DNA from: Comamonas sp. lk | GTDB lineage: Bacteria > Pseudomonadota > Gammaproteobacteria > Burkholderiales > Burkholderiaceae_C | Direction of reading: 5' to 3' | Assembly (NCBI GenBank): GCA_945869165.1 | Contig: CAMBNY010000009.1 | Location: 1 to 58,389 of the forward strand | Length of the DNA: 58,389 nt | Shown here: piece after piece, positions 16,930 through 54,051 of the stretch | Layout of the letters: the number at the start of each line of letters is the position of its first letter | Position numbering within the stretch: the stretch's first letter is position 1 | The notes under the pieces: model-generated | Databases searched by the model: none | What the model was told of the DNA's origin: nothing | Seen by the model: the letters and a program-made list of their open reading frames with translations, nothing else | Made by a program: the position numbers and the translations under genes

Positions 16930-16960
16930 CTTGGAAAAGTCAATTGGTTTGTTCATCGGC

Positions 16961-16975: not shown

Positions 16976-17063
16976 TGAAAGAAATCAAAGGTGTTTTTCC
17001 CTGCCCTACAAGGGAGATCCGAATAATGAGACGAGACAATTCCTTTGACGAAGGAGATATGTG

Positions 17064-17990: not shown

Positions 17991-18021
17991 GACGGCATCC
18001 CAACAAATACCTGGAATCTCT

Positions 18022-27690: not shown

Positions 27691-27706
27691 ATACAAGGAC
27701 TGCACC

Positions 27707-28426: not shown

Positions 28427-28446
28427 TTTTTTCCCGAGACCTTGCC

Positions 28447-29538
28447 ATGCCCTTGTCCGCCCGCTCCCAACACTCCACACTAACGCAGTTTCTCATTGAG
28501 GAGCGCCGCAAATACCCGGGCGCCAGCGGCGACTTCAATGCCCTGATTTTGGATATCGCACTGGCCTGTAAAGCGATCGCACGTGGGGTGGCATTCGGAG
28601 AATTGGGACAGGTACTGGGTGACCACAAAGAGGGCGATGGCGCATCGGTCAATGTGCAGGGTGAGGCGCAAAAAACCCTGGACGTGCTGAGCAACCGCGC
28701 CTTTATCCGCCGCACCGAATGGGCGGGTAACCTGGCGGGTATGGCCTCTGAGGAGATGGAGCACCCCTACCAAATACCCGCGCAGTACCCGCGCGGCAAA
28801 TACCTTTTGGTATTCGACCCGCTGGACGGATCGAGCAATATCGACGTCAATGTATCGGTAGGCAGTATTTTCTCGGTACTGCGCGGACCCGAAGACGGGC
28901 GCGATGTGCAAGAAGCCGACTTTTTACAAGCGGGCACGCGCCAGGTGGCAGCCGGATACGCGATATACGGGCCCACCACCATGCTGATGCTCACCCTGGG
29001 CGATGGAGTACAAGGCTTTACCCTGGACCCTAACCTGGGTGAATTCATGCTCACCCACCGAAATATCCAAATTCCGCCTGACACGCATGAGTTTGCCATC
29101 AACGCTTCCAACAGCCGGTTCTGGGAAGCGCCTGTCAAGCGCTATGTCGATGAGTGCCTAGCAGGCAAAACCGGAACGCGCGGCAAAGATTTCAATATGC
29201 GCTGGATTGCCAGCATGGTGGCCGAAGCGCACCGCATCCTGATGCGCGGCGGCGTGTTCATGTATCCCCGCGACACCAAAGACCCCAGCAAGGCCGGGCG
29301 CCTGCGTCTGCTTTATGAAGCCAATCCGGTCGGCATGATCATGGAGCAAGCCGGGGGCCGCGCCAGTACCGGGGAGAAGCCGGTGTTAGACGTGGCACCA
29401 ACGTCTTTGCACCAGCGCATCGGGCTGGTATTCGGATCGCGCAATGAGGTCGAGCGCATCGAGCGCTACCACCACGAACCGGTGCACACCGAGGAACACA
29501 ACCCCTTGTTCGCTGAACGCAGCTTATTCCGGTTTTAA
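28447..29538 (+). CDS. cbbF: Fructose-1,6-bisphosphatase class I
   Basis: Hydrolyses fructose-1,6-bisphosphate (and in some bacteria sedoheptulose-1,7-bisphosphate) in the regenerative phase of the Calvin cycle. The 363-residue protein has the metal-binding motif [13 protein letters not shown] (about 123-135), SEEMEHPY and the substrate-binding [16 protein letters not shown]. It lies 20 bp after cbbY and 23 bp before cbbP. Confidence 0.96.
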
Positions 29539-29561
29539 GATTTTTAGTTCAGGGAGTCTCC

Positions 29562-30437
29562 ATGTCAGAAAAACATCCCATCATCGCCATTACCGGCTCC
29601 AGTGGTGCGGGCACCACATCGGTCACACGTACTTTTGAAGACATTTTCCGGCGTGAAGGCGTCAACGCTGCAGTCATCGAAGGCGACAGCTTTCACCGCT
29701 ATGACCGCACTGAAATGAAGCTGCGCCTAGCCGAGGCCGAGGTCAAGGGCAACAAAAATTTCAGCCACTTCGGGCCGGAGAACAATTTGTTTTCTGAACT
29801 CGAGGCACTGTTTGCAGACTATTCAAAATCAGGCACCGGTAAGCAGCGCAAGTATTTGCACGACCATGAGGAAGCCGCACCCTTTAAGCAGGAGCCAGGT
29901 ACGTTTACGCCTTGGCAGGATGTTCCGGCTGGAACCGATTTACTTTTTTATGAAGGTCTGCATGGAGCGGTGGTTACGCCCGAGGTCAATATTGCTAAGC
30001 ACCCGGATTTATTGATCGGCGTAGTGCCGGTGATTAATTTGGAGTGGATTCAAAAGCTCTGGCGTGACAAGTCCAAGCGCGGCTACAGCACCGAGGCGGT
30101 GACAGACACGATTTTGCGCCGCATGCCCGACTATGTGAACTACATCTGCCCGCAGTTCATGCATACCCATGTCAACTTTCAGCGGGTGCCTATGGTCGAC
30201 ACCAGCAACCCGTTTATCAGCCGCGACATTCCCTCGCCAGACGAAAGCATGGTGGTTATCCGCTTCGCCAAGCCCAAAGGCATCGATTTCCAATACCTGC
30301 GCAGCATGATTGATGGCAGTTACATGAGCCGCGCCAACACCATAGTGGTGCCCGGCGGCAAAATGGAGTTGGCCATGCAGCTCATATTCACCCCCTTCAT
30401 TTGGCGCATGATGGAACGCAAGAAGCGCGCAGCATGA
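29562..30437 (+). CDS. cbbP: Phosphoribulokinase
   Basis: Phosphorylates ribulose-5-phosphate to the RuBisCO substrate. The 291-residue length is that of the proteobacterial, class I, type of enzyme. It has the P-loop GSSGAGTTSVTRTF (12-25), then EGDSFHRYDR and the Walker B-like LLFYEGLHG. The C-terminus overlaps the cbbZ start by 4 bp (ATGA). A GGGAG site precedes the ATG. Confidence 0.97.
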   Translation: MSEKHPIIAITGSSGAGTTSVTRTFEDIFRREGVNAAVIEGDSFHRYDRTEMKLRLAEAEVKGNKNFSHFGPENNLFSELEALFADYSKSGTGKQRKYLHDHEEAAPFKQEPGTFTPWQDVPAGTDLLFYEGLHGAVVTPEVNIAKHPDLLIGVVPVINLEWIQKLWRDKSKRGYSTEAVTDTILRRMPDYVNYICPQFMHTHVNFQRVPMVDTSNPFISRDIPSPDESMVVIRFAKPKGIDFQYLRSMIDGSYMSRANTIVVPGGKMELAMQLIFTPFIWRMMERKKRAA

Positions 30438-31123
30438 ACCGCTATGACCTAATCCTGTTCGACCTAGATGGCACCTTGGTCGAGACTGCACCGGAAATTT
30501 GCGATGCCGTCAATGACACCTTGCGGCACTTCGGTTTTGCCAGCGTATCGCAAGGGCAAGTCAATGACTGGATTGGCCACGGTACTTTGGAGTTGCTCAT
30601 TCAAGCCCTTGCCTCTGTGCAAAACCACAGCGCAGAGACGGTGCGGCACTCGACGGAACTACCTGCCATCGCAGCAATTTTCAAGACCCATTACCGCGCC
30701 CGCTGCGGTACGCGCAGCCACTGCTATCCCAAGGTCAAGCAAGCCTTAGTCCATCTCAAGGCGCACGGCCTGCGCCTGGCGGTGGTCACCAACAAGGAAG
30801 GGGCTTATACACAAACCGTGCTCGATGCGCACGATTTGACAGGCCTGTTTGACAAGGTGATCAGCGGCGATACGCTGGCGACTAAAAAACCCCATCCACA
30901 CGGGGTATTGGCCTGCCTGGAAATGTTTGGCATTCATCCCGACAGGGCATTGTTTATTGGCGACTCAAGTATTGATATTGCAACGGCCCGCAACGCCGGT
31001 GTCGCAGTATGGGCTGTTCCCTATGGTTACAACATGGGTCAGGCCATTGCCGATAGCAAACCCGACCGGCTGATTCAGGACTTCGGCGCTTTGATAGAGA
31101 TCAGCGATAGCGCGCATCCTTAG
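30434..31123 (+). CDS. cbbZ: Phosphoglycolate phosphatase
   Basis: HAD-family phosphatase that removes 2-phosphoglycolate, the product of RuBisCO oxygenation. The 229-residue protein has nucleophile Asp10 and Asp12 in LILFDLDGTLVETAPEI, motif II AVVTNKEGAYT, KKPHPHGVL and motif III FIGDSSIDIATARNAG. Translation is coupled to cbbP. With the aminotransferase at 23108 it gives the locus both ends of a glycolate salvage route; the glycolate oxidase in between is not in the window. Confidence 0.93.
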   Translation: MNRYDLILFDLDGTLVETAPEICDAVNDTLRHFGFASVSQGQVNDWIGHGTLELLIQALASVQNHSAETVRHSTELPAIAAIFKTHYRARCGTRSHCYPKVKQALVHLKAHGLRLAVVTNKEGAYTQTVLDAHDLTGLFDKVISGDTLATKKPHPHGVLACLEMFGIHPDRALFIGDSSIDIATARNAGVAVWAVPYGYNMGQAIADSKPDRLIQDFGALIEISDSAHP

Positions 31124-33544: not shown

Positions 33545-34021
33545 TTACCAGCGCACGCCCATGCGCTCGAAAGCCTTGCTCAAGACAAACAGGGGTCCGA
33601 CCAGCAGGTACTGCACATCTTCAAAAAACGAAGGTTTTTTCCCCTCCAGGTGGTGCCCAATAAATTGAAAAACCCAGGCGACCACAAAAATCAGCAAACT
33701 GACGGGCACCAGAAGACCCTGCACCTGAAGGGCATCGACCAGCGCCAACAGAACTGACCAGACCAACAACATACATACCGTAAAAGGCCAAGATAGGCGT
33801 GCGTAGTACACCATGCTCACGGCAATCGACAGCAACGCTGCCAATGGGTGCAAAGCAAACAGCAAACCCGTCAAACTCAACATGATGGCCGGGATGGCGA
33901 AAAAATGAATCAGCTCATTGATGGGATGTTCATGGCTCAGGCCGTAATGCTGCAAAAGCGAATCTACTTTGCGCTGGGGCAGGTCCGGTGTGTCCGAGGG
34001 CTGGGTTTCGCTAGCATCCAT
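33545..34021 (-). CDS. Mpo1-like (DUF962) membrane protein
   Basis: A 158-residue protein with four likely transmembrane helices. It carries the two histidine motifs of the Mpo1/DUF962 family: LQHYGLSHEHPINELIHFF near residues 23-41 and FQFIGHHLEGKKPSFFED near residue 120-137. Yeast Mpo1 is an Fe(II)-dependent dioxygenase that alpha-oxidises 2-hydroxy fatty acids; bacterial members are largely uncharacterised. It sits 27 bp downstream of the degenerate NADH dehydrogenase-like gene. Confidence 0.83.
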   Translation of the reverse strand: MDASETQPSDTPDLPQRKVDSLLQHYGLSHEHPINELIHFFAIPAIMLSLTGLLFALHPLAALLSIAVSMVYYARLSWPFTVCMLLVWSVLLALVDALQVQGLLVPVSLLIFVVAWVFQFIGHHLEGKKPSFFEDVQYLLVGPLFVLSKAFERMGVRW

Positions 34022-34048
34022 TGCATACCTCTTTAAAAAAAACGACGC

Positions 34049-35176
34049 TTAGAGTTTCAAGAATTGTTTCAACCAGGCCACGGTGCGCCCCTGAAAGCAT
34101 TGTCCGCCCCAAGCCAACAAAGCATGGCTGGCTCCCGCATACAGAAATTGCGCGCGCTGCACTGGCGTGGCTTGCATTTTGGTAGGCGCCGACCGCATCA
34201 AGGCATGCACATTCGAGGCGAGTACCGGACTATCGCGCCACACATGGAAGACTTCGGGGTGGCTGGTGCTGCGCTCATGGACGTCGGTCTCTACGCCTGA
34301 GCCGCCCACCTGCAAGCTCAGGCCACTGGTGGCCAGCCATCCGGCTGGCGATCGCGACAGTACCAGCATCGGCACATCGCAGGCCAATAGTGCGCCGCTG
34401 GCCAGTACCACATCATCGCGCGTTAAAGCGGCGACGTTTTCGTACAGCACGGTTACCCGCTGCTCGCGCAATAACTGCAACATACGCTGGTGCAAAGTCT
34501 CGCTATAGCCTCTATCTTCACCATGGTGCGGGCCGATGATCCACGTCACGGCGGCCGTTGGCATGCGCTGGCGCACTGCCAAAGCGAGTTCAAAGCTTTC
34601 GATACCGGGCCCAATCACCGCCATACGCAATGCCCGCGTGCGGCCCAAACCGCATACTTTGGGCCAGATAGGGACAAATCCTTCCAGTGGCGAGACGAAT
34701 AAACCATGCTCGCGCGCGCCCGGCATAGCCGCCTCAATGGCCTCCCGATGCGGCAAGGGCCCGGTATTAATGGATAAGACGTCGTAGCCTAGGGTTTGTC
34801 CATCATCGAGCAGCACCGTACGCGAGACCACATTGAGCCCCCGCCCTTGGCGCCCGGTCCACTGCACGCCGGCTTGTTGCAACCAGGGTTCGGCATCGTT
34901 CATGCATTGCGCCAGCGTGAGCTCATTGGCCACATAGCGCGCTAATTTACGCGGGGCAAAAGTCTGCGTCTGCTGGGACAAAACCGTAATGCGCACATGC
35001 GGCAAAGGCTTACGCTTGAAGTGTTCCAACAAACGCAAATGGGCCGGGCCCAGGCCCCATAGCACCAAATGTTCCGGCTGCCGATAAGGGCGTGCGGCGG
35101 GTTGGGCACCCAAGGCCCTTGCTTCTTCACCCGTAACCACAGAGTCTGCGGAGGGTGTCGCTGATTCTTGCGTCAT
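34049..35176 (-). CDS. Degenerate NADH dehydrogenase-like paralogue
   Basis: A 375-residue protein homologous to the N-terminal half of the upstream SelD fusion: LVLWGLGPAHLRLLEHF aligns with LVLVGGGHSHVAVLKAF, and GYDVLSINTGPLPHREAIEA with DYDVLAINTGSTPQVAQVPG. Key flavin positions look altered. The dinucleotide motif is GLGPAH, the second Rossmann motif is VIGPGIESFELALAV rather than VVGAGAGGVELLLAM, and the C-terminal ASGD motif aligns with VWRD. It may bind flavin poorly or act as a partner of the fusion. It starts only 4 bp after that gene ends. Confidence 0.8.
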   Translation of the reverse strand: MTQESATPSADSVVTGEEARALGAQPAARPYRQPEHLVLWGLGPAHLRLLEHFKRKPLPHVRITVLSQQTQTFAPRKLARYVANELTLAQCMNDAEPWLQQAGVQWTGRQGRGLNVVSRTVLLDDGQTLGYDVLSINTGPLPHREAIEAAMPGAREHGLFVSPLEGFVPIWPKVCGLGRTRALRMAVIGPGIESFELALAVRQRMPTAAVTWIIGPHHGEDRGYSETLHQRMLQLLREQRVTVLYENVAALTRDDVVLASGALLACDVPMLVLSRSPAGWLATSGLSLQVGGSGVETDVHERSTSHPEVFHVWRDSPVLASNVHALMRSAPTKMQATPVQRAQFLYAGASHALLAWGGQCFQGRTVAWLKQFLKL

Positions 35177-35180
35177 ACCC

Positions 35181-37592
35181 CTATTGTTCCACGAGCGCGA
35201 TCGGTGCTCTGAAATCAGGCGCCACGCACACCCTGCCGATCACGGCGCTATGCACGTAACCATGCGCTTGAAGGGCTTGTACACAGGCCTGCGCCTGGTC
35301 CCAGGGCACGCTAGCGAGCAGGCCACCGGCCGTTTGTGGGTCCCATAGCAAGGCTTGCCGCATAGGCTGATGCGTCGCCGAAACAGGGGATGCCCCTGCG
35401 CCGAAGGGCGGGCTTGCAATAGCTACGCTACGCTGCGCATTACTCGTATGCAAGGAGCTGAAAATGCCGGCCTGCATGCATTCAAGTGCGCCGTCCAGTA
35501 CGGGAAGGGCCGCGAGCTGCAACTGCGCGCCCAAGGCGGAAACTTCCAACATCTCCAGCAAATGACCGAGCAATCCAAAACCGGTCACATCGGTACACGC
35601 ATGGGCGCCGCACTGCGCCAAAACCTGTGCAGCGCCTTGACTCGATTGCGCCATGCTCTCCAACGCCGCCTCCACCCAGCGCCCGCGCGCCTGGCCCAAG
35701 GCGTGGGCGGCAAACAAAGTGCCGGTGCCCAGAGGCTTGGTCAAAATAAGGGCATCACCCGCCTGCGCGCCGGTTTTACGCATCAATTGCAGTGGCTGAC
35801 CCTGCACATCCACGTCCACCAGGCCATTGATGGCAAATCCCAGCGACAACTCCGGCCCCTCGCCGCTGTGGCCGCCCACCAGCGCGCAGCCCGCGGCATT
35901 GAGCACTTGCACCGCGCCGGCCATGAGTTGGGATAACAGGCTTTGGGTTTGCCGGTCCAGCCCCGGCGGCACGACGGCAATGGCCGTGGCCGTATGCGGC
36001 GTAGCGCCCATCGCAAAAATATCGCCGAGTGCGTGGTTGGCAGCGATTTGGCCAAAGCGGTAAGGGTCATCGATAAAAGCGCGGAAAAAATCCACGGTTT
36101 GCACCTGCGCTTTGCCTGCGGGAATACGCACCAGTGCTGCGTCATCGGGCGCGGACAGGCCGATCAGCACATCCGGGCTTTGCCAAGTCTGCAAGCCTGA
36201 TAAGGCCCGCCCCAACACACCGGCACCTACTTTGGCGGCGCAGCCACCGCAGCGCATAGCCTGCGCCTGCTGCGCTTGTTCGCGCTCCTTATGGTCCAGG
36301 TCTGCAAAATCCGTCAAACTAGGCGTAAGCGCCGCCACGGGCGCCATGGCGGCAACGCCCAGATCCGAAAAGCGCTGCATAAAGCGCCTATCTATGCGGT
36401 CTTTCCAGCGCCAGACCCAAGCGCCGGCAACATCCAACAGCCCACGCGAGGCGATGGCATAGCGGTCGCCGGTACTGATCAAGGCGAGCCAGCGCTTTTG
36501 CGGCCGATAGGCCTGTAAGGGCAAACCACACAAAGCACGGCGCAAATTGCGCGCCAGTGGCATGCCCATACGCACCGCAAACACGCCGGCTTTTTCCAAA
36601 GGGCTTGGGCCAAAGGAGGCCACATCGCCACTGGCAAATATGCGCGCATCGGTGTCCGTCTGCAAATACTGGTTCACGCGCACACAGCCGTCAGAATCGA
36701 GGGCCAAACCAGTGGATGCCAGCCAACTGCCGCCCGATGCTTGCGTCACCCAAAATACCGCATCGGCCTCTGTAGGTTCGAGCGCCCATGCGGTGCTCGA
36801 TGCAAGCACATCGTTTTGATCGCCAGCCTGCTGCACCTGTGCCGTCGCAGCACCCCAAGCATCAGGGCGCACTACTTGCACACCCGAGGCGCTGACCGCC
36901 TGCACCCGCGCGCGCAGATGCACTTGTACACCGCGCGTTTGCAAGGTGGCCATGAAGCGCGCGCGCACACCTGCGTTGTGCGTCGGCAAGATGGTGCTTG
37001 CCGCAGAAAACAAGGAAAACTGCGGTGCCGCAATGCCCAGCGCTTTGCACTCGGCCTGTAAACGGTATTGCATCGCCAGCAGCAGTTCCACGCCACCGGC
37101 ACCAGCGCCCACGACGGCAATATGGCGCGGGCCTTGTCCGGCGCGCACACTGGCAAGCAATTGCAACCAGCGCGCGTTAAAAGCAGCAATCGGTTTGACG
37201 GGAATCGCATGCTCCGCTGCGCCCGGCACCTGCGCCACCTGCGGCGTGGAGCCGGTGTTAATCGCCAGCACGTCGTAGTCCAAGGGCGGGCGCCCGTGCA
37301 ACAGCACCTGCCGCGCCGCGCGGTCTATGCCTACGACTTGCGCGCGTACAAAACGGGCACCGGCGTAGGCACACAAGCGCACCAAATCAAGGTGAACTTC
37401 GTCGTAGTCGTAATGCCCAGCCACATAGCCGGGCAGCATGCCCGAATACGGCGTATGCGCATCGGTACACACCAGCGTAAGGCGCAGGCCCGCCATAGGC
37501 TGCATACCAAAGGCTTTGAGCACGGCCACATGGCTATGCCCGCCACCGACCAGCACCAGGTCGCGCAAGATGGGGCCGGGGTTTGCTTGCAT
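35181..37592 (-). CDS. selD: Fused NADH dehydrogenase-like / selenide, water dikinase
   Basis: An 803-residue two-domain protein. Residues about 8-430 form an NDH-2-like flavoprotein (LVLVGGGHSHVAVLKAF, VVGAGAGGVELLLAM, IFASGDVASFG). Residues about 440-803 form selenophosphate synthetase, with RCGGCAAKVG holding Cys451 and Lys454 at the positions of catalytic Cys17 and Lys20 of E. coli SelD, then VQTVDFFRAFIDDPYRFGQI, VGGHSGEGPEL and DVTGFGLLGHLLEM. The fusion type is known from cyanobacteria and other bacteria. Selenophosphate could feed selenouridine or selenocysteine synthesis, but none of those genes is in the window. Confidence 0.93.
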   Translation of the reverse strand: MQANPGPILRDLVLVGGGHSHVAVLKAFGMQPMAGLRLTLVCTDAHTPYSGMLPGYVAGHYDYDEVHLDLVRLCAYAGARFVRAQVVGIDRAARQVLLHGRPPLDYDVLAINTGSTPQVAQVPGAAEHAIPVKPIAAFNARWLQLLASVRAGQGPRHIAVVGAGAGGVELLLAMQYRLQAECKALGIAAPQFSLFSAASTILPTHNAGVRARFMATLQTRGVQVHLRARVQAVSASGVQVVRPDAWGAATAQVQQAGDQNDVLASSTAWALEPTEADAVFWVTQASGGSWLASTGLALDSDGCVRVNQYLQTDTDARIFASGDVASFGPSPLEKAGVFAVRMGMPLARNLRRALCGLPLQAYRPQKRWLALISTGDRYAIASRGLLDVAGAWVWRWKDRIDRRFMQRFSDLGVAAMAPVAALTPSLTDFADLDHKEREQAQQAQAMRCGGCAAKVGAGVLGRALSGLQTWQSPDVLIGLSAPDDAALVRIPAGKAQVQTVDFFRAFIDDPYRFGQIAANHALGDIFAMGATPHTATAIAVVPPGLDRQTQSLLSQLMAGAVQVLNAAGCALVGGHSGEGPELSLGFAINGLVDVDVQGQPLQLMRKTGAQAGDALILTKPLGTGTLFAAHALGQARGRWVEAALESMAQSSQGAAQVLAQCGAHACTDVTGFGLLGHLLEMLEVSALGAQLQLAALPVLDGALECMQAGIFSSLHTSNAQRSVAIASPPFGAGASPVSATHQPMRQALLWDPQTAGGLLASVPWDQAQACVQALQAHGYVHSAVIGRVCVAPDFRAPIALVEQ

Positions 37593-37607
37593 AGCGCCCG
37601 ATTGTGA

Positions 37608-39875
37608 CTAACCGCGCCGCCAGCTATGCCAGCGCGCCAGCCAGGGCATGGCCGCTTTGGGCAAGTGCGCGCGCTGCCATTGGCCCGCCAGATGCTTAGC
37701 CGACTCGCTCAGCGTGGGATAGGCGTGGATCGTGCTCAGAATCGATTTCAAACCCAGCCCGTGGCGCAAGGCCAGCACATAGGGCGCCAGCAATTCGCCC
37801 GCGTGCGCACCGACAATGGAGACGCCCAGCAAGGTATCGCGACCAGGCACGGTGAGCACTTTGACAAAACCCGCCGGTATTGCGCCAAGTGCGGCATCAC
37901 AAATGGCGCGGTCCAGACCCGCCAATTCAAAGCGGGTGACTTCATAGGCTCGGCCGCGCGCCTGCGCTTGCTGCTCATTGAGGCCCACGCGTGCCACTTC
38001 AGGCGCGACATAGACCGCCGTGGGCAGCACGCTGTAGTCGGGCCGCAGCGCGCCCCAGCCATCAAGCAAAGCATTGACCGCCGCATACCAGGCCTGGTGC
38101 GCGGCGGCATGGGTGAATTGGTAGGGGCCCACCACATCACCCGCGGCGTAAATCGAGGGAATCAGTGTTTGCAAATAGTCATTGGTATGCAATAGCGCAT
38201 CGCCGCTTATTCCCAAATCCTCCAAGCCAAAACCGCTCAGCCTTGCCTTGCGCCCTGTCGCGCAAATCAGCAAGTCGTAGGGCAACGCCAATGCATCGCC
38301 CTGCACTTGCGCGGCCATGTGCGCAGCAGAGCCACCCACAGGCAATTCCGTGCACGGACGAAGCACCAGCAGCTTGTCAGCGCCTGCATGCACCGGCAAA
38401 GTCTCGCAGCGCAGAACTTGATGGGCAGTGAACACGCGCACACCATCGGCGCGCAAGGCCGCCTGCACCACCTCGCTGACATCGGCATCTTCCTGCGACA
38501 ACAATGCGGGCGCGGCTTCCACCAAGCTCACCTGCGCACCCAGGCGTGCCAGGGCTTGCGCCAACTCGCAGCCCACCGGGCCGCCGCCAAGGATGGCGAT
38601 GCGGCGCGGCAGCGCGCCCGATTGCTCCAAGCGATCCCACAGCGTATCGGTGGTCACAAAGCCGCTGTCCTGCAAACCCGCTATTTCGGGCACGCGTGGC
38701 TGCGAGCCAGTAGCCAGGATGATGCTGCGCGCGCTGATGCGCTCGGGTGCCTGGCCGCTACGGCGCAACTCCACCGTCCAGGGATCGACGATATGGGCAT
38801 AGGCTTGCAACACCTCCACGCCCATGGCGCGGTAACGCTCGGCGCTGTCGTGCGGCGCGATGGCAGCAATGATGCTGCGCACCCGCTGCATGACGGCGGC
38901 AAAGTCCACCTGCACCGCGCCGGTTTGCACCCCAAAGCCAGCCGCTTGCCGCGCTTGGTGCGCGACGCGGGCACTTTGAATCAAGGCCTTGCTGGGCACG
39001 CAGCCGCGGTTGAGGCAATCGCCACCCATCTCGCCTGCTTCCACCAAGGCCACGCGGGCTTGCGCATGCGCCGCCACATAGGCCGATACCAAACCCCCGG
39101 CACCGGCGCCGATGACGATCAGGTTGTAATCAAAACGCGCCGGGCGCTGCCAGCGTGCGCCGACGGAACGCCTGCGCAGCCAGCCCAATGTGCGGCGCGT
39201 CAACCACGGTGTGCAAGCCAAAGCGAGCGCCAAAGCCATCAAGACGGCGACCACCTGCGGCTGCAATACCTGCGAGACCGATTGCAATGCGGCCAACTGA
39301 GTCCCCGCTTGCAAGTAAATCATGGTGGCAGGCAACATACCCAATTGGCTAAATACATAAAAGCGCCAGGCCGGCATACGCGTCAAACCCATGAGCACAT
39401 TGATGGCACCAAAGGGTACCAAGGGAATCAAGCGCAAACTGAGCAAATAAAAAACGCCTTCCCGCTCCAAGTCCCGCGTCATGCGACCCAAACGCCTCGC
39501 CATGCCAGGGCCCAGGTAAGCGGGCAAACTCTCGGCCAGCACATGGCGTACTACCAGCAAGGTCAGCGTCGCACCCAAGCTAGAGGCAAAGGACACCAGC
39601 AACAATCCCCAGCCAAAGCCCAGCACTGCGCCACCGGCCAATGTCAACACCACAATGCCGGGTACGGCTGCGCTAGCCAGCAGCAAATACAACACAAAAA
39701 ACACGGCGCGTACCGTCCAGGGTGCTTGCGTGTGCCAGGCTTGCAAGTCCTGGTACTGCGCTTGCAAGCGCGCCAGGCTGAACCATTCAGACCCTTGCAT
39801 CACACCGGCGAACGCGAGCAGCAGCATGGCGCCCAGCGCCAAGCGCCAGAGCATGCGAGCGCTAAACACCGGCAT
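37608..39875 (-). CDS. VTT/TVP38 membrane domain fused to pyridine nucleotide-disulfide oxidoreductase
   Basis: A 755-residue protein. Residues about 1-240 form a VTT (TVP38/DedA-type) membrane domain with about six helices and the family stretch LRLIPLVPFGAINVLMGLTR. Residues about 255-755 form a dihydrolipoamide/mercuric reductase-like flavoenzyme, with FAD motif NLIVIGAGAGGLVSAYVAA, redox disulfide Cys287/Cys292 (GGDCLNRGCVPSKAL) and C-terminal IHAYPTLSESAK. No extra C-terminal Hg-binding cysteines are seen, so mercury reduction is unlikely. I chose the ATG at 39875, overlapping the previous gene by 14 bp; 39854 is an alternative. Confidence 0.88.
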   Translation of the reverse strand: MPVFSARMLWRLALGAMLLLAFAGVMQGSEWFSLARLQAQYQDLQAWHTQAPWTVRAVFFVLYLLLASAAVPGIVVLTLAGGAVLGFGWGLLLVSFASSLGATLTLLVVRHVLAESLPAYLGPGMARRLGRMTRDLEREGVFYLLSLRLIPLVPFGAINVLMGLTRMPAWRFYVFSQLGMLPATMIYLQAGTQLAALQSVSQVLQPQVVAVLMALALALACTPWLTRRTLGWLRRRSVGARWQRPARFDYNLIVIGAGAGGLVSAYVAAHAQARVALVEAGEMGGDCLNRGCVPSKALIQSARVAHQARQAAGFGVQTGAVQVDFAAVMQRVRSIIAAIAPHDSAERYRAMGVEVLQAYAHIVDPWTVELRRSGQAPERISARSIILATGSQPRVPEIAGLQDSGFVTTDTLWDRLEQSGALPRRIAILGGGPVGCELAQALARLGAQVSLVEAAPALLSQEDADVSEVVQAALRADGVRVFTAHQVLRCETLPVHAGADKLLVLRPCTELPVGGSAAHMAAQVQGDALALPYDLLICATGRKARLSGFGLEDLGISGDALLHTNDYLQTLIPSIYAAGDVVGPYQFTHAAAHQAWYAAVNALLDGWGALRPDYSVLPTAVYVAPEVARVGLNEQQAQARGRAYEVTRFELAGLDRAICDAALGAIPAGFVKVLTVPGRDTLLGVSIVGAHAGELLAPYVLALRHGLGLKSILSTIHAYPTLSESAKHLAGQWQRAHLPKAAMPWLARWHSWRRG

Positions 39876-40548
39876 CCTGCCCAAGGTTCGCAGGCAGCTT
39901 GTCTTCGGGCGGGCCGTGTTGCGGTGGATCTGCTGACGCATCGGCCAACAAGCGCACACCGCTTGCGATGCGGCCCACCCAGGTAATGCAACACAAAGCT
40001 GCAAATCCGTAAGCCAGCGGCACGAAATAATCCGGCCAGACGCACATGGCACACAAGAGTGCCAAAGTTTCTGTGGCTTCCGTCAAGCCACCCAAAAAAT
40101 AAAAGGATTTATCTGGGTACTGCAGGTTGTGCAAACCGCGCTGCGCTGCTAATGCGGCAAATGCAAGAAAGCTACTACCGGTGCCCACAAAGGCGGCAAG
40201 CAATACCGCTGCAGGCAAGGCATTGCGCAGCGGATCGGCCAGTGCAAAGGCCAGTACCATCAGCGCATAAAACACAAAGTCCAAGGCAATATCTAAAAAG
40301 CCGCCCGCCGCCGTGCTCCCGCGGCTAGCGCGGGCCACCGCGCCGTCCAGTGCATCACACAAGCGCGAACACAGTAACAGCGCCAAGCCCGCCATCCAGG
40401 CCTGCGCGGCCACCGAAGTAGCGGCGAGCACACCCAGGATAAATCCGGCCCAAGTGATGTGATTGGCCGAAATACCCCAGCGCAGCAGCGGGCGCGCCAG
40501 CGCTTGTACAGCCGGGCGTATCAGGCGGGTGGTGAAGCGGTCCAACAT
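39862..40548 (-). CDS. CDP-alcohol phosphatidyltransferase family protein (YnjF-like)
   Basis: Membrane enzyme of 228 residues with the full CDP-alcohol motif D-x2-D-G-x2-A-R-x8-G-x3-D-x3-D near residues 65-90 (DALDGAVARAS, GGFLDIALD). About six hydrophobic helices are visible. Such enzymes transfer a phosphatidyl group from CDP-diacylglycerol to an alcohol; the acceptor here is unknown. E. coli YnjF belongs to the same family and likewise sits beside a YnjC/YnjD transporter. The tail (TWVGRIASGVRLLADASAD and on) is polar. Confidence 0.87.
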   Translation of the reverse strand: MLDRFTTRLIRPAVQALARPLLRWGISANHITWAGFILGVLAATSVAAQAWMAGLALLLCSRLCDALDGAVARASRGSTAAGGFLDIALDFVFYALMVLAFALADPLRNALPAAVLLAAFVGTGSSFLAFAALAAQRGLHNLQYPDKSFYFLGGLTEATETLALLCAMCVWPDYFVPLAYGFAALCCITWVGRIASGVRLLADASADPPQHGPPEDKLPANLGQDAGV

Positions 40549-40588
40549 AGCGGCATTGTCGGCGCAAGCGATGACAGCTTGCGCAGGC

Positions 40589-41254
40589 TTAGGGTGCGCT
40601 CAAATGCGTGACACGCGCAGGGTCGGCAATATCGGCCGGGTCATGCGTCACCACGATGGCAGCGATGCCGCGCCGGGCTACTGCGTCAAACACCAGTGCG
40701 CGCATACGCTGGCGCAGCGCCACATCGAGTTTGGCAAACGGCTCATCGAGCATCAAAGCCTGCGGTTGCGCGAGCAAGGCGCGCGCCAAGGCAGCGCGTG
40801 CGCGCTGACCGCCCGATAAGGTCGCCGGATCAGCATGGGCGAAACCGGCCAACTCCACTTCATCGAGCGCTTGCGCCACCTGTGCCTCGCGCGCCGCCTG
40901 CGGCCCGGCGGCTAAGGCAAACAACAGGTTTTCCCGCACCGTCATATGCGCAAACAGCAAATCGTCCTGGTAGAGCAAAGCAATGCGCCGTGCGCGCGTG
41001 GGCAAACCATCCACACGCCGGCCCAACACATGCACCGTGCCTTGGAAATGCAGCGCCGGCGACAGCGTGCCACATACCGCGGCCAGCAAACTGGATTTGC
41101 CCGAGCCACTGGGGCCCATGATGGTATGAACTGCACCCGCGGGCAGCGCAATGTCCAGCGCTTGCGCCAAGGTGGCGCGCGGACTGCGCAGACTTTGCAC
41201 TTGCAGGTGCAAGGCCGCTGAAATATCGAAGGAAGCGGGCATAGACCGACCCAT
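40589..41254 (-). CDS. ABC transporter ATP-binding protein (YnjD-like)
   Basis: ATPase of about 221 residues with Walker A MGPSGSGKSSLLAAV, Q-loop LLYQDDLLFAHMTV, signature LSGGQRARAALARALL, Walker B ALMLDEPFAKLD and H-loop VVTHDPADI. Short length and the neighbouring two-domain permease resemble YnjD/ThiQ-type importers. Start chosen at the ATG at 41254, which overlaps nothing and follows the permease stop closely; 41242 is equally possible as neither has a good ribosome-binding site. Confidence 0.87.
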   Translation of the reverse strand: MGRSMPASFDISAALHLQVQSLRSPRATLAQALDIALPAGAVHTIMGPSGSGKSSLLAAVCGTLSPALHFQGTVHVLGRRVDGLPTRARRIALLYQDDLLFAHMTVRENLLFALAAGPQAAREAQVAQALDEVELAGFAHADPATLSGGQRARAALARALLAQPQALMLDEPFAKLDVALRQRMRALVFDAVARRGIAAIVVTHDPADIADPARVTHLSAP

Positions 41255-41255
41255 C

Positions 41256-42986
41256 CTAAACCAGGCCAGGCGCCATGCGGGGTGGCGCAAAACGCCGCTT
41301 GCGTCCCAGCCCCAAGGCCAGCGCGAACATGCATGCAGGCAAGAGCCATTGCAATAGCGCATAAGCGGCCAGCAGCGAGCGCTGACCGCCAGAAGATAAG
41401 GCCACCGCTTCGGTCGTCACCGTCGCAAAGCGCCCGCCACCGACAAACAAGGTAGGTAAAAACTGCGCTACGCTGACGGCAAAACCAACAGCAAAAGCCG
41501 CCGCCAAGGCTGCGCGCAGCATGGGCCATTGCACCTGCCACCAATACGCCCAGCGCGAGCGGCCCAGACTGGCCGCCAACTGCGCGCCGCGCGGATCAAG
41601 CGCGGCATACGGGCCTTGCAAGCTAAGTAGCACATAGGGCCAGACGCTCAGGCTATGCGCCAGCCACAAACCCCACGCGCTGGCGTCCCAACCCAAAGCG
41701 ATGCACACGCGCTGCAAACCAAGCGCCCATAGCAAAGCGGGCAGTGCCAATACCAGGTAAGCAGCGCTGAACCAAGCGGCGTGCCAGCGCGCAGGCAGAC
41801 CTTCCAGGATGGCCAGCGCCACCAGGAAGGCCGCTGCAGCACTGGCCAGACCCAGCCACAAGGTGGTGCCCAGCACCCCAGAACTGCCCAGCACTTGCTG
41901 CCAAGCCTGCAGCGTCCAGGACTGCGGCCACAGCGCGGGAAAAGGCCAGGCCCCCGCCACGCTGCCCCACACGAGGGCCGCAGCGACCAGCGCATAAGCG
42001 GCCAGCAAGGCCGCCACTAAGCCCGGCGCGTCATGATGAATTCCCGTATGGATACGGCCCGGCGCAGCCCGATCGGCAGCGCTCAGCGCAAGGGCAGCCT
42101 TTTCACGCCACTTGAAGCGTGCACTCAGCTGTCTTAGGCGGCCCATCGTATGGACTGATTCCGTGATGGACCGCGAGCCGCGCGTCCAGCGCGCCGGCGC
42201 CCACCAGCGCAAGTCCATGCGATACAGGATAAAAGCCAAACCGGCCACCAACACAGTGCACAGCAAAAGGCACAACACAGCGGCCAGGCCTTGCGCGCCA
42301 ATAGCAGGGTCCGCATCTTGCAGCCACTGCCATGCCAGCACCGCCAGCGTGGGCGGCGCGCCCGGCCCGATGATCCAGGCCACGTCCACCACCGACAGGC
42401 TATAAGCCCAGACCGCCAACAGTGGCCCGGCCATGCGCGGTAACAACTGCGGCCAGACCACGCACCACCAGGCTGACTGCGCGCTATAGCCCAAAGTGGT
42501 GGCGACACGCATTTGCGCTTGCCAGGCTTGCGCCAGATCCGGTCGCTGCAATTGCGCCCATGCGCCCCACCACAAAAACGGAATTTCTTTGCACACCAGC
42601 ACCAACACCAAGCCCAGCGCATACGGGTCTTGGGTGCTCTGCCAAGGCGGCGGCGCATCCAAGGCAAAGGGTATAGCCTCGGCCCAGGGGTGCAAAGCCG
42701 CAAACAAAAGCCGTACCAGCCAACCCGACGGAGCCAGCAGGAGCATGCAGCCCAAAGCAAAGGCCACATGCGGCAAGGCCAACATGGCAGGCAATAGCCT
42801 TAAATGGCTGTGATCGGTGCGCAGCCCCAGGCCCGTGGACAAAATACAGGCGCTCACGCACAGCGCCAACAGCGTTGCCGCCATACCGCTCCACAGCGAC
42901 AGGCTTAGGGCCTGTGCAAACTGCGGGTGCTGCAGCAATAGTGCGCAGGCCGTGGTCAAAGAAGTGATGGGTAAAAAAATATCCAC
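41256..42986 (-). CDS. ABC transporter permease, two fused membrane domains (YnjC-like)
   Basis: A permease of about 576 residues in which two binding-protein-dependent permease domains are fused. Each has about six helices and an EAA-like cytoplasmic loop: ATTLGYSAQSAWWCVVWPQL in the first half and AASLGRSRWAYWWQVQWPML in the second. They are joined by a basic linker (RWTRGSRSITESVHTMG). The start is uncertain. I propose GTG at 42986, because the longer open frame is antisense to rlmJ and the first internal ATG (42884) would cut the first helix. No solute-binding protein gene is adjacent. Confidence 0.8.
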   Translation of the reverse strand: MDIFLPITSLTTACALLLQHPQFAQALSLSLWSGMAATLLALCVSACILSTGLGLRTDHSHLRLLPAMLALPHVAFALGCMLLLAPSGWLVRLLFAALHPWAEAIPFALDAPPPWQSTQDPYALGLVLVLVCKEIPFLWWGAWAQLQRPDLAQAWQAQMRVATTLGYSAQSAWWCVVWPQLLPRMAGPLLAVWAYSLSVVDVAWIIGPGAPPTLAVLAWQWLQDADPAIGAQGLAAVLCLLLCTVLVAGLAFILYRMDLRWWAPARWTRGSRSITESVHTMGRLRQLSARFKWREKAALALSAADRAAPGRIHTGIHHDAPGLVAALLAAYALVAAALVWGSVAGAWPFPALWPQSWTLQAWQQVLGSSGVLGTTLWLGLASAAAAFLVALAILEGLPARWHAAWFSAAYLVLALPALLWALGLQRVCIALGWDASAWGLWLAHSLSVWPYVLLSLQGPYAALDPRGAQLAASLGRSRWAYWWQVQWPMLRAALAAAFAVGFAVSVAQFLPTLFVGGGRFATVTTEAVALSSGGQRSLLAAYALLQWLLPACMFALALGLGRKRRFAPPRMAPGLV

Positions 42987-45248: not shown

Positions 45249-46904
45249 TTGATCACACAAGCGTCCGCAACACGGGATGAAAATGCAGACTGGTGGCGCG
45301 GCGGCATCATCTACCAAATCTACCCGCGTTCGTTTCAAGATAGCAATGGCGACGGGGTAGGCGATTTGCCCGGTATTACCCAGCGCTTGGCCCATGTTGC
45401 AGCCCTAGGCGCAGACGCGGTGTGGCTATCGCCGGTGTTTAAAAGCCCGATGAAAGACTTCGGCTATGACGTCAGCGACTACCGCGACATCGACCCGCTG
45501 TTCGGCACACTGGACGACTTTCGCAAATTAGTGCGCCATGCCCATAGCCTGGGCCTGAAAGTCATGATCGACCAGGTGCTCTCGCACACTTCCGATCAAC
45601 ATCCCTGGTTTGTCGAAAGCCGTGCCAGCCACGACAACCCCCGCGCCGACTGGTATGTGTGGGCCGATGCCCGTGACGACGGCACGCCACCGAATAACTG
45701 GCTCTCCATCTTTGGTGGCAGCGCCTGGCAGTGGGACACCCGGCGCTTGCAGTACTACCTGCACAACTTTCTAGCCTCCCAGCCTGACCTCAATTTCCAC
45801 AACCCGCAGGTACGCGCAGCCATCCTCGACGACGTGCGTTTCTGGCTGGAACTAGGGGTGGATGGCTACCGCTTGGACACGGCGAATTTCTACTTCCACG
45901 ACCAGGCGCTGCGCAACAACCCAGGGCGCGGCCAGCCCGACCCTAAAGACGCCTCGGTCGACCCGGTCAACCCCTACAGCCGCCAGCACCATGTGTACGA
46001 CAAAAGCCGCCCCGAGAACCTCGGGTTTTTGAAAGAACTGCGGGCCCTGCTGGACCGCTACCCCGGCAGCACCATGGTCGGCGAAATCGGTGACGATGAC
46101 AGCCTGACCCGCATCGCCCAATACACCCAAGGCGGCGACAAGCTGCACATGGCCTACTCCTTCGACTTGCTCGGAGCCAACAAAAGCGCCACGTTTTTGC
46201 ATGGCCTGCTCGATACCTTTATGGCCACGGTGGGTGACGGTTGGCCTTGCTGGGCGCTGTCCAACCACGATGTGATGCGGGTCGCCACGCGCTGGGGCGG
46301 GGCAGAGCCCGATGCGCGATTGCTGCGGCTGGCTGCGGCTTTCCAGATGAGCTTGCGCGGCAGTCCCTGCATCTACCAGGGCGACGAGTTAGGCCTCACG
46401 CAGGTGGACATCCCATTTGAGCAATTACAAGACCCCTTTGGCAAAGCCATGTGGCCCGAGTTCAAGGGCCGCGACGGCTGCCGCACCCCCATGCCTTGGC
46501 AAGCGCAGCAGGTGCAGGGGGGTTTCAGCAGCGCCGAGCCCTGGCTGCCACTGCCGCCAGAACACCTCGCGCTAGCGGTCGACGCGCAACGCGCCGATCC
46601 GCACAGCCTGCTTCATTTCTATACCGGCCTGATCCGCTGGCGCGCGCAGCACCCGGTGCTGGTGCATGGCGCTATGCGGCTGCTGCCCCTGCATCCGCAG
46701 GTGCTGGCCTTTGAGCGCAGCCATGCCGGGCAGTGCGTGCTATGCGTGTTTAATTTCAGCGACACCGCGGTGGACTGGCCGCTGCCGCCCGCCCACTACG
46801 GCACACAGTCGCTGGAGGGCAGCGGTCTGCAAGGTGCTTTGCTGATCGAGGGCTATGTGGCCTTGCAGCCCTGGGGCGGCTACTTCGGTCTGGCGCGCGA
46901 GTAG
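45249..46904 (+). CDS. Alpha-glucosidase, glycoside hydrolase family 13
   Basis: A 551-residue GH13 enzyme that acts on alpha-glucosidic bonds. It begins WWRGGIIYQIYPRSFQDSNG and has conserved regions VMIDQVLSHTSDQHPWF, the nucleophile Asp in VDGYRLDTANF (about 209), the acid/base Glu in MVGEIGD (about 278) and SNHDVMR (about 338). The start must be TTG at 45249, about 9 nt after GGGAG; no suitable ATG exists upstream of the first conserved residues. Together with glgB 23 bp downstream it probably belongs to glycogen or maltooligosaccharide use. Confidence 0.9.
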   Translation: MITQASATRDENADWWRGGIIYQIYPRSFQDSNGDGVGDLPGITQRLAHVAALGADAVWLSPVFKSPMKDFGYDVSDYRDIDPLFGTLDDFRKLVRHAHSLGLKVMIDQVLSHTSDQHPWFVESRASHDNPRADWYVWADARDDGTPPNNWLSIFGGSAWQWDTRRLQYYLHNFLASQPDLNFHNPQVRAAILDDVRFWLELGVDGYRLDTANFYFHDQALRNNPGRGQPDPKDASVDPVNPYSRQHHVYDKSRPENLGFLKELRALLDRYPGSTMVGEIGDDDSLTRIAQYTQGGDKLHMAYSFDLLGANKSATFLHGLLDTFMATVGDGWPCWALSNHDVMRVATRWGGAEPDARLLRLAAAFQMSLRGSPCIYQGDELGLTQVDIPFEQLQDPFGKAMWPEFKGRDGCRTPMPWQAQQVQGGFSSAEPWLPLPPEHLALAVDAQRADPHSLLHFYTGLIRWRAQHPVLVHGAMRLLPLHPQVLAFERSHAGQCVLCVFNFSDTAVDWPLPPAHYGTQSLEGSGLQGALLIEGYVALQPWGGYFGLARE

Positions 46905-46927
46905 CCACCGCTTTCGCGCCGCACCCT

Positions 46928-49117
46928 ATGCTCAAAGACCACGATGTTTCCGCCCTGATGGCGGCGCGGCACGTCGACCCGTTTGGCGTGCTGGGTATGC
47001 ATGTGCAGGACGGACGTTTGTGGGTTAGCGCTGTGCTAGCCCATGCCCGCACGGTGGACGTGGTAGAGCGCAACACGCAGCGCTTGGCGGGCAGCTTGCA
47101 GCGACTGGGAAATAGCGATGTCTTTAGCAGCGCACTGCCGGGGCGCAGCGTGCCCTTTGCCTACCAGTTGCGGGTGCACTGGAAGCCGGGCGCAGGCAAC
47201 ACCGCTGACTCCACGCTGCTCGATGACCCCTATGCTTTTCCCGAAATCCTTTCCGATGGGGACATTTGGCTGCTGGCCGAAGGCTCGCACCAGCGGCCCT
47301 ACGAATGCCTGGGCGCGCACCCCGATATACGCGATGACGTACCGGGCACCCGCTTTGCCATTTGGGCGCCCAATGCCAAGCGGGTATCGGTAGTCGGCAG
47401 TTTCAACCAATGGGACGGGCGACGCCACCCTATGCGTTTGCGCCATGGCTGCGGCGTGTGGGAAATCTTTCTGCCCCAGGTGGTGCGTGGTGATACCTAC
47501 CAGTTTGAAATCTTGGGCGCGCAGGGCCTGGTCGCATTGAAAGCGGACCCCTATGCCTTCCAAACCCAATTGCGGCCGGCCACGGCCAGCCTGGTGTGCG
47601 GGCTGCCGCCCCGGCGCGCGATGCAGCCATCGCGTGCCGCAGCCAATGCGCTGAATGCGCCCTTGTCGATGTACGAAGTGCACCTGGGTTCCTGGCGCAA
47701 AGCAGACGGCTGGCGCTGGCTGAACTACCGCGAACTGGCCGACACCCTGGTGCCTTATGCCAGCGACCTGGGATTCACGCATCTAGAGCTTATGCCCGTG
47801 AGTGAGCATCCGCTGGATGCGTCCTGGGGCTACCAGCCGCTGGGCATGTTCTCGCCCACGGCGCGCTTTGGCAGCCCGGAGGATTTTCAGTATTTTGTGG
47901 ACGCGGCCCATGCCGCCGGATTGGGCGTAATTTTGGATTGGGTGCCCGCGCACTTCCCCAGCGACGCGCACGGTTTGGCGACTTTTGACGGCACGCATCT
48001 CTATGAATACGCTGACCCCAAAGAAGGTTTTCACCAGGACTGGAATACGCTGATCTACAACTTCGGCCGTACCGAAGTGCGTAATTTTTTGATCGGCAAC
48101 GCTTTGTACTGGTTGGAGCGCTTTGGCATTGACGGCCTGCGTGTCGATGCCGTGGCCTCTATGCTGTACCGCGACTACAGCCGGGAGCCCGGCCAGTGGA
48201 TACCCAACGCCCATGGCGGGCGAGAAAACCTGGAGGCCATGGATTTCCTGCGCCGCCTCAACCACCAAGTCGGTGTGGAGCGGCCTGGCACGCTGATGAT
48301 TGCCGAAGAATCCACCGCCTTCCCGGGCGTAAGCCGCCCGCCAGCGCCCGACCTGGCCAGTGGTGGGCTGGGCTTTCACTTCAAGTGGAATATGGGCTGG
48401 ATGCACGATGCGCTCGACTACTTTCAGCTCGACCCCGTCTACCGCCGCCACCACCAAAATTTGCTGACTTTTGGGCTGATGTACGCGTTTAGCGAAAACT
48501 TTGTGCTCCCGCTCTCGCACGACGAAGTGGTGCATGGCAAGCGTTCGCTGCTGGGCAAGATGGCGGGCGACCCGTGGCAGCAATTGGCCAATTTGCGCGC
48601 GCTTTACGGCCTGATGTGGGCCTATCCGGGTAAAAAACTATTGTTCATGGGGGGTGAATTCGCCCAGCCCACCGAATGGGCCGATGGCCAAAGCCTGCCC
48701 TGGCATCTGCAAGACCAGCCGGGCCACGCCGGTGTGCAGCGCTTGGTGCGTGATCTCAACCGCGTCTACCGCGACCTGCCCGCCTTGCACCAGCAAGACG
48801 AAGATTGCGCCGGGTTCAGCTGGATCGCGCACGAAGACCATGCCCAATCGGTATTGGCCTTTGCCCGGTGGTCGCGCAGCGGCCAATGCGCGGTGGTGGT
48901 CTGCAATTTCACACCCTTGCCGCGTACCGCTTATCGACTCGGTGTTGCGCAAGGGGGCGAATGGCGTGAAGTGATCAACACCGATGCAAGCGTGTACGGC
49001 GGCAGCGGTATCGGCAACAACAGCTTGCATGCGGATGCACAGGGGGCGCACAGGCACGAACAATCGCTGCTTCTGCATCTGCCGCCGCTGTCCTGCCTGG
49101 TGCTGGAACCCGCGTGA
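46928..49117 (+). CDS. glgB: 1,4-alpha-glucan branching enzyme
   Basis: Introduces alpha-1,6 branches into glycogen. The 729-residue protein has an extra N-terminal domain (1-110), a CBM48 domain (TRFAIWAPNAKRVSVVGSFN at about 139-158), and the GH13 core with GIDGLRVDAVASMLYRDYSR (nucleophile about 405), IAEESTAFPGV (acid/base about 460) and LSHDEVVHGKRSLLGKM. Length matches two-N-domain branching enzymes. First of five glycogen genes in order. Confidence 0.96.
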   Translation: MLKDHDVSALMAARHVDPFGVLGMHVQDGRLWVSAVLAHARTVDVVERNTQRLAGSLQRLGNSDVFSSALPGRSVPFAYQLRVHWKPGAGNTADSTLLDDPYAFPEILSDGDIWLLAEGSHQRPYECLGAHPDIRDDVPGTRFAIWAPNAKRVSVVGSFNQWDGRRHPMRLRHGCGVWEIFLPQVVRGDTYQFEILGAQGLVALKADPYAFQTQLRPATASLVCGLPPRRAMQPSRAAANALNAPLSMYEVHLGSWRKADGWRWLNYRELADTLVPYASDLGFTHLELMPVSEHPLDASWGYQPLGMFSPTARFGSPEDFQYFVDAAHAAGLGVILDWVPAHFPSDAHGLATFDGTHLYEYADPKEGFHQDWNTLIYNFGRTEVRNFLIGNALYWLERFGIDGLRVDAVASMLYRDYSREPGQWIPNAHGGRENLEAMDFLRRLNHQVGVERPGTLMIAEESTAFPGVSRPPAPDLASGGLGFHFKWNMGWMHDALDYFQLDPVYRRHHQNLLTFGLMYAFSENFVLPLSHDEVVHGKRSLLGKMAGDPWQQLANLRALYGLMWAYPGKKLLFMGGEFAQPTEWADGQSLPWHLQDQPGHAGVQRLVRDLNRVYRDLPALHQQDEDCAGFSWIAHEDHAQSVLAFARWSRSGQCAVVVCNFTPLPRTAYRLGVAQGGEWREVINTDASVYGGSGIGNNSLHADAQGAHRHEQSLLLHLPPLSCLVLEPA

Positions 49118-49127
49118 GCGCAGTGTG

Positions 49128-51242: not shown

Positions 51243-51252
51243 GAACGACCCT

Positions 51253-52542: not shown

Positions 52543-52565
52543 GCGTCCCGCCCCGGCTTGTGTGC

Positions 52566-54032: not shown

Positions 54033-54051
54033 TTTCAGGCGCCTATTGCCC

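Follow-up and report, generated by a model that had tools for sequence, protein, structure and literature searches.

We know of no established function for the Escherichia coli genes ynjABCDEF/ydjXYZ, for fusions of a VTT membrane domain to a disulfide reductase, or for the NADH dehydrogenase (NDH)-like family TIGR03169. Here we describe an operon of Comamonas sp. lk in which relatives of all three stand together with the selenophosphate-forming protein SelD. It lies on contig 9 (CAMBNY010000009.1) of a draft genome of 2.64 Mb that is 84% complete (G000), and "the window" denotes the whole analysed stretch of 58,389 nucleotides. A passage of PMC2731931 reports that ynjABCD is induced on BaeR overexpression in E. 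coli, and a section of PMC2432076 proposes that an NDH fused to SelD reduces a selenium compound. For COG0398 DedA proteins, a passage of PMC10127716 names fusion with PF07992/PF02852 as the commonest. Within the titles and abstract openings that were covered, a scope outside which most subscription papers fall, no gene set joins SelD with YnjC/YnjD/YnjF or with TVP38 and a CDP-alcohol transferase.

We consider it moderately probable that the operon unites two functional units. Block A would be an old transport and membrane-redox module and block B an NDH/SelD fusion, which would have displaced a standalone selD while a degenerate NDH (NDHdeg) was kept beside it. Seven minus-strand genes run from 42986 to 33545, and a DadA-like gene follows:

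41256..42986, minus strand: ynjC-like two-domain ABC permease, block A; assigned by likeness to E. coli YnjC
40589..41242, minus strand: ynjD-like ABC ATPase, block A; PF00005 (ABC_tran), 105 bits
39862..40548, minus strand: ynjF-like CDP-alcohol phosphatidyltransferase, block A; PF01066 (CDP-OH_P_transf), 37.2 bits
37608..39875, minus strand: VTT/PNDR, block A; VTT domain PF09335 with Pyr_redox_2/dim domains
35181..37592, minus strand: NDH/SelD fusion, block B; TIGR03169 and TIGR00476
34049..35176, minus strand: NDHdeg, an NDH-2-fold protein without the FAD and NAD motifs; TIGR03169, 119.9 bits
33545..34021, minus strand: Mpo1-like membrane protein; PF06127, 55.3 bits
32254..33483, minus strand: DadA-like FAD oxidoreductase (DAO), a doubtful member; PF01266, 180.9 bits

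The gaps measure 13 bp between YnjC and YnjD, 40 bp between YnjD and YnjF, 15 bp between VTT/PNDR and NDH/SelD, 4 bp between NDH/SelD and NDHdeg and 27 bp between NDHdeg and the Mpo1-like gene, while YnjF and VTT/PNDR overlap (-14 bp). This range of -14 to 40 bp agrees with a preliminary description of the DNA, which had seven same-strand genes overlapping or at most 40 bp apart between 33545 and 42986, and profile matches confirm the domain names given there. The DadA-like gene, suggested as an eighth member, does adjoin (61 bp), but it is more loosely spaced and is linked only in the closest relatives (L052, L053, L055, L056), so its membership is doubtful. The start codons of ynjC (GTG at 42986) and ynjD (ATG at 41242) are picks among several candidates. 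A divergent RlmJ-like gene is the upstream neighbour. A consensus promoter scan returned 4 sites against a shuffled mean of 4.0, and a terminator scan returned 27 against 19.8 (sd 4.6), near the shuffled expectation.

All genomes compared are drafts, and linkage was scored within about 20 kb or less. Of the 21 genus genomes with a fused SelD, 13 have VTT/PNDR immediately ahead of NDH/SelD (the window, L052, L053, L055, L056, L057, L060, L062, L063, L064, L067, L131 and L132), and ynjC is visible in 11 of these loci (all but L131 and L132). Genomes in which block A and NDH/SelD are united at one site are termed joined here; they carry fused SelD only. A DUF3047 gene stands between SelD and NDHdeg in L060, L063, L064, L067 and L131. 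An Mpo1-like gene follows NDHdeg in nine further genus loci (L052, L053, L055, L056, L057, L062, L123, L128, L129) and in L130, and adjoins selD in the genome G026. The same order thus recurs in genus relatives and parts of it across the phylum, which indicates that the arrangement is not a matter of chance. The neighbourhood is conserved beyond close relatives, so that a lack of such conservation, named in the preliminary description as a refuting outcome, did not occur. That the genes are merely packed into a compact genome and share no purpose seems quite unlikely to us: blocks A and B do occur apart, and the DadA-like gene joins only in the closest relatives, but within each block the genes stay together in distant genomes, and the measured genes have ratios of nonsynonymous to synonymous substitution rates (dN/dS) far under 1.

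Three arrangements of the site are observed. G026 has the order YnjC-YnjD-YnjF-VTT/PNDR-DUF3047-NDH, followed by a standalone selD on the opposite strand and an Mpo1-like gene (the NDH, convergent selD and Mpo1-like gene at L239 2750-5514). The joined lineage has the order of the window, and in G035 the two halves share a contig but are separated by about 90 kb. A further genome, G083, has VTT/PNDR-DUF3047-NDH with a standalone selD 1.8 kb on. The arrangements in G026 and G083 indicate that selD already neighboured the module before the fusion in the window organism's family, and the fusion seems to have displaced this older standalone selD at the module site. We infer the following direction of change: a standalone selD would first have adjoined the NDH of block A; in one lineage the bifunctional NDH/SelD would have replaced it, settling between VTT/PNDR and NDH; the old NDH would then have lost its FAD and NAD motifs yet persisted, probably as a non-catalytic partner.

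SelD exceeds its cut-off in 35 of 41 genus genomes, fused in 21 and standalone in 16, with both kinds in two (G022, G023); they were sorted by score, frame length and context. Within the genus the standalone and fused kinds largely replace one another. Three genomes (G003, G009, G023) have NDH/SelD with neither YnjC nor VTT/PNDR in the fetched DNA, and in three others (G011, G017, G024) the contigs are too short to resolve the arrangement. L169 holds VTT/PNDR-NDH with NDH/SelD-Mpo1 7 kb further on; it was considered as an intermediate with adjacent NDH genes and dropped, given this distance.

NDHdeg scores below the TIGR03169 cut-off of 310 bits, and reads GLGPAH, APRKLAR and GPGIESFE in the motif regions, with the AGD region deleted. 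Among 58 protein clusters 54-99% identical to it, none has the YSG, AGD or GxGH motif (the GxGH region is absent in two), and the NAD motif is kept in 10. One homologue of NDHdeg is named Rhodoferax, which fits a source organism of the Comamonadaceae. NDHdeg is under purifying selection. Its dN/dS is 0.098-0.118 in three pairs whose dS of 1.5-1.6 is near saturation (a fourth pair is saturated), within the range of its neighbours; six further pairs gave 0.049-0.155 at dS 0.47-1.49. The predicted structure keeps the NDH-2 fold (pLDDT 87.7; top match 4nwz, TM 0.74).

Two trees were built, with 66 and 81 NDH domains. NDHdeg groups with its genus orthologues in a single clade (support 100/99), which nests with the unfused NDH of L154 (G083), L163 (Hydrogenophaga), L169 and L115 (G266) and is separate from the clade of fused NDH; the smaller tree agrees for the rows that it contains. 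The smaller tree leaves out three fragments or duplicates; the larger leaves out seven rows of the first set and adds new ones; row L061, tagged as degenerate by its best match, keeps all motifs. At the four nested loci VTT/PNDR precedes NDH on the same strand, with DUF3047 between them in three, and the NDH motifs are intact except for CSAM in place of YSGM in L163. All motifs are likewise intact in the NDH of G026. The term "degenerate NDH paralogue" of the preliminary description holds as to degeneracy; an origin as a decayed copy of the fusion was dropped, as the tree places NDHdeg with the module's older, unfused NDH. In the 81-domain tree all 17 fused rows from loci with an NDHdeg gene cluster together (support 87/78), for which a single merger of fusion and module would be the simplest reading. 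NDHdeg is a putative pseudo-oxidoreductase that has been maintained, and it may act as a partner of NDH/SelD.

The SelD part of the fusion is genuine. It scores 296.6 bits with TIGR00476 (cut-off 125), and the NDH part scores 472 bits with TIGR03169. Aligned to 3u0o, the N-terminal glycine-rich segment reads GGCAAK against AGCGCK and contains the catalytic Cys and Lys, which we take to be Cys17 and Lys20 of E. coli SelD. No other SelD exceeds the cut-off in the draft genome. MnmH is over its cut-off on contig C14, as it is in 38 of 41 genus genomes somewhere in the assembly, whereas SelA gave no match in this 84% complete draft (SelB was not searched for) and matches in only 2 of the 41. Since MnmH is present and SelA gives no match, selenouridine is the likely selenium use, and the fused SelD likely serves it. 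Block B would accordingly be predicted to make selenophosphate for MnmH, the tRNA 2-selenouridine synthase.

Across wider samples, fused and unfused NDH keep different company. In a non-random set of GTDB loci (the best 80 of 124 confirmed), mnmH accompanies 20 of 51 fused and none of 28 unfused loci, whereas VTT/PNDR accompanies 3 of 51 fused and 12 of 28 unfused loci (Fisher p=3e-5 and 1e-4). The phylum sample repeats the pattern, with mnmH at 7/10 and VTT/PNDR at 0/10 fused loci against 0/17 and 10/17 unfused NDH genomes; the fused loci are the 10 fetched of 22 besides that of the window, and the unfused are all those of at least 200 bits. L221, whose contig ends 2 bp past the match, was left out of these counts, L223 was counted as fused (857-aa frame), and mnmH was counted by tblastn (E 1e-6) with weak matches included. 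Linkage of the locus to mnmH, selA and ynjB had also been raised: the fusion does lie beside mnmH elsewhere, but in this genome mnmH is on C14, ynjB is on C5 and selA has no match.

YnjB exceeds its cut-off in 41 of 299 Pseudomonadota genomes. The 40 loci besides the window hold YnjF in 29 cases, VTT plus reductase in 12 (with an unfused NDH in six) and MnmH in none. Among the 41 YnjB genomes 18 have a SelD over its cut-off, versus 86 of the 258 others (Fisher p=0.22), and for 6 of the 12 loci with YnjB and VTT/PNDR the genome has no SelD that exceeds the cut-off. The absence of SelD alongside the module is thus roughly as frequent as expectation, so the module does not depend on selenophosphate, and selenium as its general purpose was dropped.

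A single selenium pathway, at least in the window organism's family, is a serious possibility, although we do not hold it to be the likely one. On this reading, a version of the single selenium or sulfur pathway first proposed for the operon, a compound of selenium or sulfur would enter through YnjBCD and be reduced to selenide at the membrane by VTT/PNDR and the NDHs, and SelD would capture the product. It draws on the genuine SelD, the presence of mnmH, the direct contact of VTT/PNDR with NDH/SelD in the 13 genus genomes and the proposal for SelD-fused NDH in PMC2432076. A DedA-selenite resistance paper whose title speaks of a "probable link", cited in the reference lists of PMC10127716 and PMC3836016, fits as well. 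The absent YnjB-SelD association, the module's frequent occurrence without SelD and the scarcity of VTT/PNDR beside fused SelD, most of which sits with mnmH elsewhere, argue against it. So does the lack of any standalone selD in the DNA available around the 12 unfused GTDB loci that have VTT/PNDR.

Several observations nevertheless weigh against separating the two blocks in function. Of the 18 phylum genomes with both selD and YnjB, six (five of family f35, with an E. coli-like gene order, and G083) have the two genes no more than about 13 kb from each other, and this favours a real selenium link. So does the standalone selD beside the module NDH in G026 and G083, which predates the fusion; this adjacency is the best evidence for such a link, but it is local. 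Outside the joined lineage, a fused NDH/SelD faces VTT/PNDR in L202 and G022 and lies about 9 kb from it in L169, which again favours a link. The support of 87/78 for the fused rows carrying NDHdeg is modest, and at 84% completeness the single SelD and the missing selA may be assembly gaps. On balance we retain the reading of two units that were brought together.

The transport part of block A has a real resemblance to its E. coli counterpart. As had been proposed, the first three genes are like ynjC, ynjD and ynjF, with identities over the aligned parts of 38-48%, 48% and 50%. The permease has no Pfam match and only weak NCBIfam matches to ModB and ThiP, all under their cut-offs. The operon itself contains no binding-protein gene. 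A YnjB (NF008633, 498.6 bits, cut-off 203; 48% identical to E. coli YnjB) is encoded outside it at C5:43730-44878 of the same genome. A strong YnjC match occurs in 23 of 37 genus genomes, including that of the window, and YnjB is over its cut-off in 24, namely the same 23 and G030 (76% complete). A PDB sequence search and Pfam gave no match for the YnjB of this genome; precomputed Pfam tags of its homologues name substrate-binding-protein families, and a structural model of Rhizobacter YnjB, which indicates a fold class rather than a ligand, matches metal-citrate, iron and polyamine binding proteins. One 655-aa YnjB (P0157) also bears the domain tag PF04116 for a fatty-acid hydroxylase, in keeping with the sterol-desaturase genes found near YnjF.

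Thiamine import by YnjBCD is very improbable. One source labels YnjB a "putative thiamine transport system substrate-binding protein", and the ATPase and permease match the ThiQ and ThiP models below cut-off. However, neither the window nor any of 13 scanned YnjB loci contains a thiamine pyrophosphate riboswitch at the gathering score, tRNA and signal recognition particle RNA being all that was found, and the 50 matches listed for the Rhizobacter model include none named as a thiamine-binding protein. The candidate was dropped on the empty riboswitch scans, although thiamine transport need not be under riboswitch control.

VTT/PNDR joins a VTT (TVP38/DedA-type) membrane domain to a disulfide reductase resembling dihydrolipoamide dehydrogenase and mercuric reductase. 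It carries GGDCLNRGCVPS, and its last 40 residues are free of Cys. Near-identical copies occur on plasmids (23 records of at least 99% among 206 with a match) of Klebsiella, Salmonella, Providencia and Citrobacter, several of them from cattle or milk. At the plasmid locus L010 (4427-11726) the gene lies beside DUF2282/DUF692 genes, an extracytoplasmic function (ECF) sigma factor and SulP.

Within block A, YnjBCD could import a small compound, with YnjB supplied from contig C5, and YnjF could act on a lipid head group. The VTT-anchored disulfide reductase and an NDH-2-like flavoprotein may deliver electrons from NAD(P)H at the membrane. Their substrate is probably a thiol-reactive compound of a metalloid, soft metal or chalcogen, or thiols oxidised by such a compound. 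In the window organism the NDH of the fusion would have taken over the work of the old NDH, and it probably also reduces the selenium feed. Block A is found with an unfused NDH in a Klebsiella plasmid, Paracoccus, Rhizobium rhizoryzae, Rhizobacter, Ciceribacter and Paenibacillus. The Paenibacillus filicis locus (L207 276-12475), with homologues of YnjC, YnjD, YnjF, VTT, disulfide reductase and NDH on one strand, places the module outside Pseudomonadota.

The companions of the module give hints about its substrate. DUF2282/DUF692/DUF2063 genes, presumably bufferin genes, lie with sigma factors beside it in Klebsiella, Burkholderia glumae and Paracoccus plasmids; the same genes occur in the G266 and G083 loci (where a sigma factor was not looked for). 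It is accompanied by YnjA-like proteins in Aeromonas and family f35; genus relatives have redoxin or Rieske proteins next to it, and sterol-desaturase or fatty-acid-hydroxylase family proteins occur at other loci. Arsenosugar-cluster genes are found in L162, L164, L228, L084, L088, L157, G311, G318 and G022. Thiol-reactive elements and membrane redox are common to these companions, which favours a metalloid or soft metal as the substrate; we propose this with modest confidence.

An organoarsenical version of this idea is more specific and, in our judgement, doubtful. Block A would handle organoarsenicals or related metalloids, reducing methylated arsenic for arsenosugar synthesis of the ArsS type (we take TIGR04167 to be ArsS), and the window genome would use the kit for another substrate. 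ArsS, VTT/PNDR, both glycosyltransferases and NDH occur together in L162, L164 and L228. The arsenosugar-type loci L084 and L088 also hold YnjBCD, and the G311 and G318 loci combine arsenosugar-cluster and module genes. On the B. glumae plasmid (L157) VTT/PNDR and NDH lie among arsenosugar-cluster genes, with no ArsS seen there. Glycosyltransferase and MTAP names follow NCBIfam and records. In G022 (L126 8976-17451), NDH/SelD, an ArsS-type radical SAM protein, two arsenosugar glycosyltransferase homologues, MTAP and DUF3047 face VTT/PNDR, so that a SelD fusion and an arsenosugar cluster are linked directly. Against this, ArsS is over its cut-off in only 5 of 41 genus genomes, none with a strong YnjC match, and has no match over the cut-off in the window genome. 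Both glycosyltransferases occur in just 3 of the 40 phylum YnjB loci, and YnjF is not among the matches in the ArsS loci L126, L162, L164, L181, L189, L199, L228, G276 and G311.

Going beyond the two-unit reading, we speculate that block A is a general kit for reductive uptake, handling thiol-reactive metalloids as well as soft metals, and that it is paired in different lineages with arsenosugar synthesis by ArsS, metal buffering by bufferins or SelD. The cofactor-free old NDH might then dock NDH/SelD to the VTT reductase, so that selenide, which is toxic, would be made and captured at the membrane. We regard this extension as rather unlikely.

The remainder of the window encodes other functions. 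A photosynthesis cluster (1004-19488) includes a CobN/Mg-chelatase with DUF3479 (bchH-like), subunits of a nitrogenase-type protochlorophyllide reductase and PucC, along with a PAS-HTH regulator and a member of the rubrerythrin family. The host is probably a phototrophic betaproteobacterium. Past the DadA-like gene, positions 26725-31123 hold Calvin-cycle-like genes for an AAA ATPase (CbbX-like), fructose-bisphosphatase, phosphoribulokinase and a HAD phosphatase. Glycogen genes occupy 45249-56520 and encode an alpha-amylase family protein, GlgB, GlgX-like and GlgC-like proteins, glycogen synthase and phosphorylase.

The recurrence of one module beside arsenosugar genes, bufferin-type genes and SelD provides concrete substrates to test. 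The site is also a traceable case of a flavoenzyme whose cofactor sites would have decayed once a fused relative had come to stand beside it, and which selection nevertheless kept. The function of VTT/PNDR further bears on the cargo of plasmids in Klebsiella, Salmonella, Providencia and Citrobacter.

Compared with known systems, the E. coli ydjXYZ-ynjABCDEF region shares YnjB, YnjC, YnjD and YnjF homologues and adjoining VTT/DedA proteins with the window genome, but no VTT/reductase fusion or comparable NDH is annotated beside them. It has YnjA, YnjE and YdjY in addition, and its selD is located about 5.5 kb away, on the far side of topB. The module on plasmids of Klebsiella, Salmonella and others (e.g. 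NZ_CP092394.1) shares VTT/PNDR, a TIGR03169-like NDH and YnjC-D-F. It differs in having YnjB in place, bufferin-type genes, an ECF sigma factor and a carboxymuconolactone-decarboxylase-family protein, and SelD is not annotated in the stretch. Arsenosugar (ArsS) clusters have VTT/PNDR, NDH and often DUF3047 in common with the module, and the window genome differs from them in having no ArsS over the cut-off. The COG0398 DedA fusions to PF07992/PF02852 are of the same kind as VTT/PNDR; the passage of PMC10127716 on them makes no tie to YnjBCDF, TIGR03169 or SelD. The NDH/SelD fusions of cyanobacteria and Alphaproteobacteria have the domain order of the window protein, TIGR03169 followed by TIGR00476. 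Elsewhere such fusions mostly stand beside mnmH or without any of the genes looked for, whereas the fusion described here lies inside a transport and redox operon and is followed by NDHdeg and an Mpo1-like protein.

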